A stretch of DNA of 37,532 nt from an uncultured Ruminococcus sp. GTDB lineage: Bacteria; Bacillota; Clostridia; Oscillospirales; Acutalibacteraceae. The position numbers and the translations under genes are program-made. How positions within the stretch are numbered: position 1 is the first letter of the stretch; each line of letters begins with the position of its first letter. A model generated the notes under the pieces. That model saw nothing but the letters and a program-made list of their open reading frames with translations. It was not told the origin of the DNA and searched no databases. Where the stretch lies: assembly GCA_902764235.1 (NCBI GenBank), contig CACWVH010000026.1, positions 1-37,532 on the forward strand. Direction: 5' to 3'. This document shows, one piece after another, positions 18,525 through 23,925 of the stretch.

Positions 18525-19592
18525 ATGGAATTTATAGGAAAAAAATGTCCGGTTTGCTCTGCTGAGTTCAAACAAGATGATGATGTTGTTGTTTGCCCTA
18601 AATGCGGCGCACCATATCACAGGGACTGCTACAAGATAAAAGGTAAATGTATTTTCCCGGCTCTTCACAAGGAAGGCAAAAGCTGGAAATCTGTGTATTG
18701 CAATGATACAGAAGCTCAGGAAAATGATGCTTCAGATGATTCTGACAACACTGTATGCAGATTCTGCGGTCATAAAAATTCAAAGGATTCAATAGTTTGC
18801 GAAAACTGCGGAGAATTTCTTACCGGTCAGTCTGCATTTACACATCACAGTGAACCTCAGAACGATGACAGCAGCGAAGAGCTTGAAAAAATCCGTGAGC
18901 AGATCAAAAATGTCACTCCGGTTATGGGAAGCGCTGACTTCTACGCTAACGGAAATACACCCTTTAATTTCGGGTATGATCTGAATGAGGATCATGGCGG
19001 GGTTACTGCAGATGAGCTTTCGGATTATGTAGGTTCAAATGTGTTATATTATATTCCCGTGTTCTCAAGGATCAAAAACTTCAATTCCAGCAGATTCAAT
19101 TTTGCAGCCTTTTTATTCAATGGTGCTTGGTATATTTACAGAAAACAGTACATTAAAGGAATACTGATATCATTATTGATGCTTGCAATAAGTGCTTTTC
19201 AGGGGTTTGCCATGAAGTTCTGGTCAGGAGAGCTCTGGGAAAAAGCTAATAATGCACTCGGAGTACCCGGATATGCACCAACCTATCAGGAGTATTTCAA
19301 ATGGATATCCGAAAACTGTACTAACCAGGAAATGCTTATTATGGCTCTGCCCTATGTACTCAGTCTGGTATCTTTTATTGTTATGATATTCTGTGGTATC
19401 ATGGCAAACAAGGGTTATTACAAAAAAGCAATTAAAACAGTCAAAAATATCAAAACCAATTCTGTTGATGAACAACCGGAAGATATCAAACGCAGTATCA
19501 TCAGAAAAGGCGGCGTTCATCCCGGCGCTGCGTTTACCCTGTTGACCTGTGAATCTATTATAAGTGTAGCTATTATGTATTTCTTTTCGTAG
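18525..19592 (+). CDS. Membrane protein with prokaryotic RING finger and zinc ribbon
   Basis: A 355-residue protein. The N-terminus is a cross-brace zinc site of the prokaryotic RING type: CPVC at 8-11, CPKC at 24-27, then H and C in YHRDCY and a further Cys. A second zinc ribbon follows at about 69-90 (CRFCGHKN..CENCG). An acidic linker leads to a DUF2628-like membrane part. It has a reentrant or half-hydrophobic FAAFLFNGAWYIYRKQY segment, then membrane segments near 215-235, 272-295 and 337-355. Residues before the first segment should be cytoplasmic. Function is unknown; related RING/ribbon proteins often mediate protein contacts. GGAG lies 10 nt before the ATG. galU follows after 46 bp without a terminator, so the two may be co-transcribed. 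Confidence 0.75.
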   Translation: MEFIGKKCPVCSAEFKQDDDVVVCPKCGAPYHRDCYKIKGKCIFPALHKEGKSWKSVYCNDTEAQENDASDDSDNTVCRFCGHKNSKDSIVCENCGEFLTGQSAFTHHSEPQNDDSSEELEKIREQIKNVTPVMGSADFYANGNTPFNFGYDLNEDHGGVTADELSDYVGSNVLYYIPVFSRIKNFNSSRFNFAAFLFNGAWYIYRKQYIKGILISLLMLAISAFQGFAMKFWSGELWEKANNALGVPGYAPTYQEYFKWISENCTNQEMLIMALPYVLSLVSFIVMIFCGIMANKGYYKKAIKTVKNIKTNSVDEQPEDIKRSIIRKGGVHPGAAFTLLTCESIISVAIMYFFS

Positions 19593-22273: not shown

Positions 22274-22290
22274 AATATTTTTAAATGACA

Positions 22291-22320
22291 TTCCCCGACA
22301 GCCTGCAAGCCGCCGGGGAA
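22291..22320. terminator. Hairpin between the TSCPD gene and the large RNA region
   Basis: TTCCCCG (22291-22297) pairs with CGGGGAA (22314-22320). It closes the rpsF operon on the plus strand and is also at the expected 3' end of the minus-strand RNA. T runs on either side are weak. Confidence 0.5.
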
Positions 22321-23144
22321 TTTGATTATAGGAGAAGTCTTATGACAACAAGTCAATCGAATTAATTCGGCATTGGAATCATTCCTATAAGTTATTTGAA
22401 AGGGTTTTTATAAGAAAGTACTGAAAACCTAAGTATTACATTGGAAACATTCCTGTCTGTATAGATTATATAATAAGCAAAAACTGCAATAATCCAATTT
22501 ACTCTCAGAATACATTAGGTGCACTGACCATTGCGCCACACCATCGGAGGCAAATTGCCTGCCTTAATGCTTTATTCAGACGGCCGAACCTGTATCCGGC
22601 CCACACATTGATACTATAAACTTTGTAATGTGAGGAACTTCCGAGAAATAAACGGTTCAAATATACTGTTCAGCCTATGACAATTTCTTCTTTATAGAAG
22701 CCATCCCCGCTGTCAGCGGTTAAAGAATTCCGTGAAAACTACAAAAGAATTTAAGAAAATCACGGAAGATATTCAATTGTAAATTCTTAGCCGAAGCTGC
22801 CCTGCCGCCGCCCACTTCGTAAAACCATCGGGCTGCTGCTGACCGTCATCGTCAGGCATCTTCCCACAGTTCAAAGACTATAAAGAACTTACAAGCACAT
22901 TGCTTTTAATTCGAAGCTGCTCTGCGGAAGTTGCCGTACACTATAGCTGCTGTACGGATCGACCGGAGCAAGGCTCATAAAACAAGTTCTTATCTGATCT
23001 TTTCTCCGTAGAAGACCTCGCACCAAGAGGTATTGAGATCTGAAATAACCGGTTCTGATTCGCCCATTGGAGCTTGCCTCCCTTCTTGAATTAGATCAAA
23101 CTAAAACCCAATCGCAGTCATCAGATTTGGTCTTTGTTTATCTT
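22321..23144 (-). ncRNA. Candidate large structured non-coding RNA (about 820 nt)
   Basis: There is no sizeable reading frame on either strand, yet a consensus promoter (23151-23178) fires into this stretch on the minus strand. The sequence is rich in local hairpins. By plus coordinates these include 22728-22735 with 22760-22767 (8 bp), 22934-22939 with 22952-22957 (6 bp), 22582-22586 with 22597-22601, 22839-22843 with 22851-22855, and 23015-23019 with 23027-23031 nested inside a second 5-bp helix. Internal repeats are visible: CGAAGCTGC at 22792-22800 and 22912-22920, and CATTGGAA(A/T)CATTCCT near 22372 and 22439. It does not show the conserved cores of RNase P RNA, tmRNA or SRP RNA. Size and style recall the giant ornate RNAs (ROOL, GOLLD, OLE), but no class can be assigned by eye. 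Confidence 0.65.
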
Positions 23145-23150
23145 GAATAT

Positions 23151-23178
23151 ATTATACCACATATTTGTATAATGTCAA
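23151..23178 (-). promoter_or_regulatory. Consensus promoter of the large RNA
   Basis: On the minus strand TTGACA (23178-23173) and TATAAT (23156-23151) match consensus perfectly, with a 16-bp spacer. The expected start is near 23144. It diverges from the DUF1292 promoter 57 bp away. Confidence 0.85.
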
Positions 23179-23321: not shown

Positions 23322-23642
23322 ATGAGCGATAAGGAAAAAGAGCTGCAGGATGAGGAATTCCCCGAAACAGACCTCGTTAGTCTTGTGGATGAAGACGGCA
23401 CAGAATATGAATTTGAGGTTATCGATGAAATAGATCATAAGGACGGACATTACTATGCTCTTGCTCCACAGTTTGATCTTCCTGACCAGGATATCGAAGC
23501 AGGAAGCACATATATGATCTTTGAAGCTGTTGAGGATGAAAACGGTGAGCCGCAGCTTGCTGAGATCGAGGATGAGGATCTTCTCGATGAGCTTGCTGAG
23601 ATCTTTGAACAGAATTTCGATTCATCACTTGAGGAAGAATAA
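23322..23642 (+). CDS. DUF1292 domain protein
   Basis: A very acidic 106-residue protein of the DUF1292 (YrzB-like) family, common in Firmicutes and of unknown function. Family traits are VSLVDEDGTEYEFEVIDEI, YYALAPQF and MIFEAVEDENGEPQLAEIEDEDLLDELAEIF. The frame is open 33 codons upstream through AT-rich promoter DNA. ATG 23322 is chosen because AAGGAGATG lies 7 nt before it. It has its own promoter and sits between two candidate RNA genes. Confidence 0.88.
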   Translation: MSDKEKELQDEEFPETDLVSLVDEDGTEYEFEVIDEIDHKDGHYYALAPQFDLPDQDIEAGSTYMIFEAVEDENGEPQLAEIEDEDLLDELAEIFEQNFDSSLEEE

Positions 23643-23704: not shown

Positions 23705-23925
23705 CACTCAAGTGAACAAATTTAGTTAAATTGTCTGCCCGATGCGTATTGATCGTGTAAAATAACCCTACAACCTTTAAATCGGGAATCCGGCTTCTGC
23801 AGTGGACTTCAGACCTCCCGCTCCTGCGGACGAAGGGAGTATGAAATTGTGGAGAGGATACCCACCTGCTTCTCTCGTAGGCAGGTTATTATCTACGGTG
23901 TACGGTTGGGCGGACTTTTATTTTT
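23705..23925 (+). ncRNA. ssrS: 6S RNA candidate
   Basis: A roughly 200-nt transcript with its own promoter and terminator. GTCTGCCC (23733-23740) pairs perfectly with GGGCGGAC (23908-23915), closing a long rod. Further in, AATAACC and CTAC (about 23761-23771) pair with GTAG and GGTTATT (about 23877-23890). The apical part folds as CTCCC with GGGAG around a TCC/GGA inner stem (23815-23840). A closing stem, large internal loops and an apical hairpin in about 185 nt is the plan of bacterial 6S RNA, which binds the housekeeping RNA polymerase. A class-specific search has not been done, so another small RNA remains possible. Confidence 0.55.

Follow-up and report, generated by a model that had tools for sequence, protein, structure and literature searches.

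A predicted giant structured RNA encoded beside 6S RNA in Ruminococcus, with conserved putative ribosome start sites that open onto very short frames

We found that the 37,532-nucleotide stretch of DNA analysed here (the window), from an uncultured Ruminococcus, encodes on its minus strand what comparison with homologues strongly supports as a giant structured RNA, a neighbour of the divergently read 6S RNA. The homologues share the RNA itself, a predicted fold, putative ribosome-binding sites, in-frame stops, a coding signature in the first codons of a short frame and a link to 6S RNA. The conserved start sites appear to lead only to tiny frames, as if they served the engagement of ribosomes and not the making of a protein. 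That this RNA of about 850 nt engages ribosomes as a sensor or decoy, and is thus a translational counterpart of 6S RNA, is a reading to which we give even chances. The features are, by window position:

22290-23144, minus: giant structured RNA of about 855 nt, called from genus-wide matches and covariation
23151-23178, minus: promoter, TTGACA at 23178-23173, a 16-nt spacer and an extended -10 TATAAT at 23156-23151; 12/12 matches
23069-23081, minus: hairpin GGAG-GCAAG-CUCC (helix 3), holding part of the Shine-Dalgarno sequence AAGGGAGG (23084-23077)
22990-23067, minus: conserved short ORF MGESEPVISDLNTSWCEVFYGEKIR with stop UAA, 25 amino acids (about 26 codons), called from its translation and coding-type substitutions
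22443-22454, minus: putative ribosome-binding hairpin of the middle mini-ORF, AGGAAUGUUUCC (helix 29), invariant in 49/49 homologues
22436-22441, minus: start-stop mini-ORF AUG-UAA; AUG-UAA in 45/49 homologues
22375-22386, minus: putative ribosome-binding hairpin of the 3' mini-ORF, AGGAAUGAUUCC (helix 30), 96.6% of cells paired, no two-sided changes
22362-22373, minus: mini-ORF AUG CCG AAU UAA (MPN); a nearby in-frame stop is kept in like copies
22290-22321, minus: closing hairpin and probable terminator (helix 31), two-sided changes at 14 of 15 pairs
23322-23642, plus: DUF1292 protein gene between the giant RNA and 6S RNA (PF06949, E 2.5e-15)
23729-23920, plus: 6S RNA, divergent neighbour (RF00013, 58.7 bits)

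The 5' end of the RNA, near 23144, was inferred from the promoter, and the 3' end was set at the closing hairpin. On one flank, convergent with the RNA, lie rpsF, ssb, rpsR and a TSCPD gene; on the other, divergent from it, lie the DUF1292 gene and then 6S RNA, the sole Rfam match above its gathering score in the window. Farther off, positions 18525-19589 encode a protein that has a RING-finger domain of the prokaryotic type (PF14446) and also matches zinc ribbons weakly. The RNA stretch has a G+C content of 41.4% vs 19-24% in three nearby spacers, in agreement with the preliminary description, which had called it richer in GC than the flanking spacers. Three other elements of that description were recovered as well: an internal repeat occurring twice (CGAAGCTGC, at 22792 and 22912), a TTGACA-16-TATAAT promoter on the minus strand, with TG before the -10 in the window copy, and a hairpin at the far end, which has 14 pairs in the window copy.

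A total of 84 homologous loci was located in two overlapping collections, and the promoter pattern stands upstream at 83 of them (duplicates between the collections included). The unique set, in which loci with identical first 700 nt were merged, kept 49 of 80; loci with less than 800 nt after the promoter and locus L069, which has no promoter match, were left out. Alignment A3 held 48 of the 49 homologues, L071 being short there. In the unique homologues the promoter spacer is 16 nt (43) or 17 nt (6), and TG precedes the -10 in 49/49. By its motifs, this is a strong promoter of the housekeeping, sigma-70 type. At the other end, 34 of the 49 have a strong hairpin beginning 812-946 nt after the -35, and 31 of these carry at least 5 T in the tail. 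The hairpin of the window copy was not accepted as a terminator by the consensus scan because its T run is missing. The closing hairpin probably acts as a terminator, and the convergent TSCPD operon possibly uses it too. The first bases of the predicted transcript, CAAGAUAA (23145-23138, minus), are nearly invariant across the 49 homologues and are also found in another genus (g116, locus L133); no partner for them was found. Nearly invariant too is the motif ACAAUUGAAUA (22780-22770, minus), mostly unpaired in the consensus fold; a similar motif is present in other genera (L127, L130-L134).

Homologues in Ruminococcus genomes had been called for in the preliminary description, which held that a lack of conservation would count against the RNA; matches are present in 56 of the 64 genomes of the genus (own included) and in 25 of the 26 of good quality. 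A DNA search of 40 genomes found the RNA in 23, own included, all of them within the genus (23/25 genus genomes vs 0/15 from elsewhere in the order). The search of named genome contigs gave 85 loci, and those with promoter and short ORF are labelled, for example, as uncultured Ruminococcus, Ruminococcaceae, Clostridiales or Clostridia; the rest look like chance matches, many of them in long coding frames. Profiles reached further. Profile R1, of the 5' element, matched 13 of 300 genomes of the family, nine of these in six other genera. Profile R2, made from 28 chosen sequences (eight from other genera found by R1, and 20 of the 49), matched 30 of 398 family genomes in 13 of 135 genera, most of the family genomes searched thus giving no match; 24 of the matching genomes lie outside the genus, in 12 other genera. 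Among these 24 loci, the promoter pattern occurs in 19, and a Shine-Dalgarno sequence with AUG and a peptide of 15-30 codons in 18, for example MGELEPVHFMSLVDETGSDLRG and MGELTPENFMSFVDETGSDSQG; several of them have mini-ORFs MI, MII, MH or ME. L159, L162 and L163, which have neither promoter nor 6S RNA, may be chance matches. Two loci of genus g40 (L131 and L147) carry mini-ORFs AUG-UAA and MRSLF upstream of the 5' short ORF, with a GAGGU-type Shine-Dalgarno sequence. Beyond the family, five weak matches in 394 genomes of the order (E 1.1e-4 or worse) were not counted; none of the five has a 6S RNA and four have no promoter match. One of these loci, L167, from another family of the order, has two short ORF sites (MGDYR and MAS) of the form SD-CC-N-AUG; its promoter match lies only downstream of these sites, and no 6S RNA was found there.

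The preliminary description had proposed a structured RNA, and here the homologues carry the case. Folded alone, the window sequence was only modestly better than its shuffles (z -2.26, with 1 of 20 shuffles as good), and therefore the structure claim rests on the comparison of homologues. The RNAalifold consensus of the 49 unique homologues (alignment A1) contains 156 pairs in 31 helices, with pairing kept in 88.6% of pair cells vs 34-45% for control structures slid by 1 to 3 columns. Two-sided changes occur at 105 of the 156 pairs and in 882 cells, vs 303.5 in shuffles, and none of 500 shuffles reached any of the five fold measures, statistics that favour the tested structure because it came from the same alignment. 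The 3' module alone shows compensatory change at 22 of its 26 predicted pairs. A tree-based, structure-free covariation test of all column pairs, of low power, returned four pairs at E<=1, all of them 90% complementary or more; among these, 706/717 crosses 712/720 within 15 nt, which means that one of the two at the least reflects the clade and not pairing, and that not all four can be helices. Of the ribosome-site hairpins, helices 29 and 30 have no covariation (helix 29 is invariant and so offers none for or against) and helix 3 varies only by G-U. In helix 17, UUACA (alignment columns 555-559) pairs with the AUG-UAA site in 86% of cells, with almost no covariation.

The stretch had also been described as ORF-free, with no useful frame. 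There is indeed no long ORF inside the RNA, in which the longest stop-free stretch is 68 codons; the description missed a conserved 25-residue frame with a strong ribosome-binding site and two mini-ORFs. All 49 homologues have A[AG]GGAGG followed, after 9 nt (47 copies) or 10 nt (2 copies), by AUG, and helix 3 is paired in 100% of cells, three of its four pairs being invariant. Peptides resembling MGESEPVISDLNTSWCEVFYGEKIR follow in other homologues, with the N-terminus MG[DE]xEP. Over the first eight codons, substitutions in frame 0 are much more conservative than expectation (z about 5.9), and z is negative in the other frames; 39-nt windows over the start of the ORF reach z of 7.2 in frame 0, and nearly gap-free windows away from it, the only ones used elsewhere, do not exceed about 3 whatever the frame (codons bearing two or more changes were skipped). 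A coding signal is lacking in the second half (z about 1), whose bases also build helix 5 and the 5' strand of each of helices 6 and 7; in 7 of the 49 homologues the frame is shifted or broken after the conserved start. The peptide is therefore not strictly kept: the start is under protein-type selection and the remainder mainly under selection on the RNA. Pure chance is ruled out as the origin of the 26-codon frame by its frame-0 signature, and so is an ordinary conserved protein, given the seven broken frames and the second half that is not coding-like. Runs of acidic residues in nascent chains destabilise ribosomes early, according to the accessible part of PMC9718836. By analogy, the N-terminal MG[DE]xEP might do the same.

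The two GGAAT/ATTCC hairpins seen earlier in the sequence were found at 22375-22386 and 22443-22454 and correspond to the putative ribosome-binding hairpins of the mini-ORFs. The 3' part of the RNA repeats the hairpin-AUG element, GGR-N-UG-NN-UYC-N-AUG: beyond 300 nt from the -35, where alone sites were counted, the 49 genomes have 99 copies, with two copies in 39 genomes, one in five, three in four and four in one. AUG-UAA makes up 46 of the 99 copies and is present in 45 of the 49 genomes (not in L021, L023, L070 and L074; L023 has AUG-UGA instead). In the remaining 53 copies the frame always ends within 10 codons of the AUG, with a median of two codons between start and stop, and the residues encoded vary (MPN, MP, MVV, MRI, MIS, MGRH and others). 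Among the 47 copies with distinct downstream 12-mers, which are still related by descent, a stop lies within 10 codons in 47/47 in frame vs 22 and 18 off-frame, and within 6 codons in 37 in frame vs 14 and 9 off-frame, the maximum in 20,000 random-frame draws being 32. The search pattern says nothing about stops, so this test is not circular. What the mini-ORFs keep, judged from these alignments, is the start and a nearby stop, not the peptide. Extra copies are present in the 3' part of L067, L014, L020 and L023, up to the four of L067 (AUG-UAA, MRI, MRI, MRM), and therefore the mini-ORF unit seems to duplicate within the RNA.

We then considered the neighbouring gene. 6S RNA binds and occupies RNA polymerase. 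It adjoins the giant RNA in the window and in 17 of the 19 genus loci searched, and the two loci without a 6S match, L015 and L020, are both close to contig ends. In other genera it is adjacent in 19 of the 24 profile-match loci, namely 7 of 8 and then 12 of 16 further family loci (the 16 drawn from 20, of which two others repeat earlier genomes and two lie outside the family); G226 has a sub-threshold 6S match beside the RNA, and in G178 6S RNA is on another contig. The association was also examined from the 6S side, in the 23 of 30 family loci with full flanks, the seven with cut flanks being left out. The site sought around 6S RNA combined a Shine-Dalgarno sequence and CC-N-AUG with an ORF no longer than 35 codons. 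There were 14 such sites, in 9 of the 23 loci, upstream of 6S RNA and antisense to it, vs 0, 0 and 1 in equal lengths of the other three side-and-strand combinations and a mean of 0.48 (maximum 3) in first-order Markov shuffles; the other 14 loci have no such site. Only L189 of the nine site-bearing loci belongs to a genome among the R2 matches, so the profiles probably miss part of the class. Seven loci (L179, L180, L183, L188, L192, L196 and L199) have short ORFs (MVSEDKCF.., MYSEEQPG.., MDSEQFHS..) or mini-ORFs on the expected strand. Absent from the profile matches, they possibly form a more divergent branch of the class.

How these parts could work together can be put as follows. Transcribed from its predicted strong housekeeping-type promoter, the RNA would offer, across the genus, two to five hairpin-set Shine-Dalgarno sites, each with an AUG directly after. 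Of the frames that these would open, the one close to the 5' end has about 26 codons, another is in most cases AUG-UAA, and the rest end within 10 codons. Ribosomes would initiate at the sites and mostly stop almost at once, which argues that initiation and release may be selected, rather than a product. The 26-codon frame passes through helices 4 and 5 as well as the 5' strand of each of helices 6 and 7. Its translation would therefore hold the 5' domain open, and with an idle ribosome the domain would be free to close. In this way the RNA would sense or absorb free initiation capacity, while its counterpart 6S RNA occupies RNA polymerase. Ribosome engagement, as sensor, decoy or both, would be the simplest function that uses all the parts. 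A more specific form, which we put forward only tentatively, is that the start-stop mini-ORF array captures and releases initiating ribosomes (or 30S subunits with initiator tRNA) and is paired with the polymerase-binding 6S RNA, one site setting both capacities in these Clostridia.

The chief rival, a minor but serious possibility, is that the RNA is structural, a scaffold or a homo-oligomer as with GOLLD, ROOL and OLE, and that its ribosome sites give merely nuclease protection. A bound ribosome or 30S subunit can shield Gram-positive transcripts from nucleases, and the size, elaborate fold and strong promoter, together with sites placed near the 5' end and in the 3' tail, would suit such a role. 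GOLLD, moreover, is bound by ribosomes in pull-downs, as given in the accessible part of PMC12286853. Protection, however, needs a Shine-Dalgarno sequence; neither the conservation of an AUG and of an in-frame stop close by nor the protein-type substitutions in the first codons would be required for it. Next, and unlikely in our judgement, stands a classical dual-function RNA of the RNAIII or SR1 kind, in which the peptide of the 26-codon frame is a real product and the rest pairs with mRNAs. The strong Shine-Dalgarno sequence and start codon in 49/49 homologues, the N-terminal coding signature MG[DE]xEP and the peptides of similar length in 18 of the 24 profile matches from other genera speak for it; the C-terminal half that is not coding-like and the 7 of 49 broken frames speak against it, and AUG-UAA and the other very short frames would go unexplained.

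The preliminary description had looked to a divergent member of ROOL, GOLLD or OLE, or else to a new class. The first is very improbable: size and style are all that favours it, and searches with Rfam 15, whose RF03087, RF01998 and RF01071 we take to be ROOL, GOLLD and OLE, returned no match to these or to any other large RNA in the window or in 19 homologous loci. In the window, the region of the RNA searched to E 10 gave nothing near its family's gathering score; in the 19 loci searched to E 5, 6S RNA was the only family above gathering. At the loose threshold, matches inside the RNA were far below gathering, with no family recurrent across homologues, and Rfam placed no 6S match inside the giant RNA. 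The locus also argues against such a kinship, since it is chromosomal, between rpsF-ssb-rpsR-TSCPD on one side and DUF1292-6S on the other, the window holds no tRNA and viral contigs, searched for exact copies of the 5' motif, gave none. As to the second proposal, Rfam 15 bears it out as far as it goes, and a literature search that covered few subscription papers gave, among the matches listed, no description of the RNA or of a 6S-linked mini-ORF array. Within Rfam 15 and the literature searched, we read this giant structured RNA as a new class. A CsrA sponge, binding CsrA through the repeated GGA in hairpins, is more improbable still: GGA does recur in hairpins, but it sits in the stem, the in-frame stops would be unexplained, and no PF02599 match turned up in any of the 64 genus genomes, vs 3 of 14 control genomes with one, by which this candidate was rejected for the genus, short of a CsrA-like protein from some other family. 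A decayed gene or functionless untranslated region fits the lack of a long ORF but not the conservation, covariation, promoter and mini-ORFs, and we take it as refuted.

The RNA adds a class to the short list of giant RNAs, in homologous records that come largely from Ruminococcus and other rumen or gut assemblies. Its conserved ribosome start sites leading nowhere are a built-in functional clue, which sets it apart from ROOL, GOLLD and OLE and opens a giant RNA's function to direct testing. The recurrent link to 6S RNA points to control of growth or dormancy.

Compared with known systems, the RNA resembles ROOL and GOLLD in being very large and elaborately folded, and GOLLD in particular if ribosomes bind the new RNA too. 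In the accessible part of PMC12286853, the genes for ROOL and GOLLD lie in phages or prophages, frequently close to tRNA islands, the functions of both and of OLE are called poorly understood, and a link of OLE to the ribosomal protein RpsU is proposed. The new RNA differs from ROOL and GOLLD in being chromosomal, beside 6S RNA, without a model match and equipped with mini-ORFs. With OLE, it shares the elaborate fold of a large bacterial RNA, but it matches no OLE model and adjoins DUF1292 and 6S RNA. Among dual-function RNAs, RNAIII is one, and SR1 and VcdRP are others in the accessible parts of their descriptions, which give VcdRP a short ORF of 29 codons. Like these, the RNA is structured and also carries a short ORF; it is much larger, and its additional mini-ORFs keep start and stop but not the sequence between. 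Its mini-ORFs resemble minigenes and other start-stop elements in having an AUG after a ribosome-binding site and a stop within a few codons. The bar minigenes of phage lambda are an example, whereas the present ones are conserved within a structured RNA, and some species carry additional copies. With 6S RNA, finally, it shares the locus and the character of a conserved housekeeping-type RNA, but it is a separate gene, divergently read.
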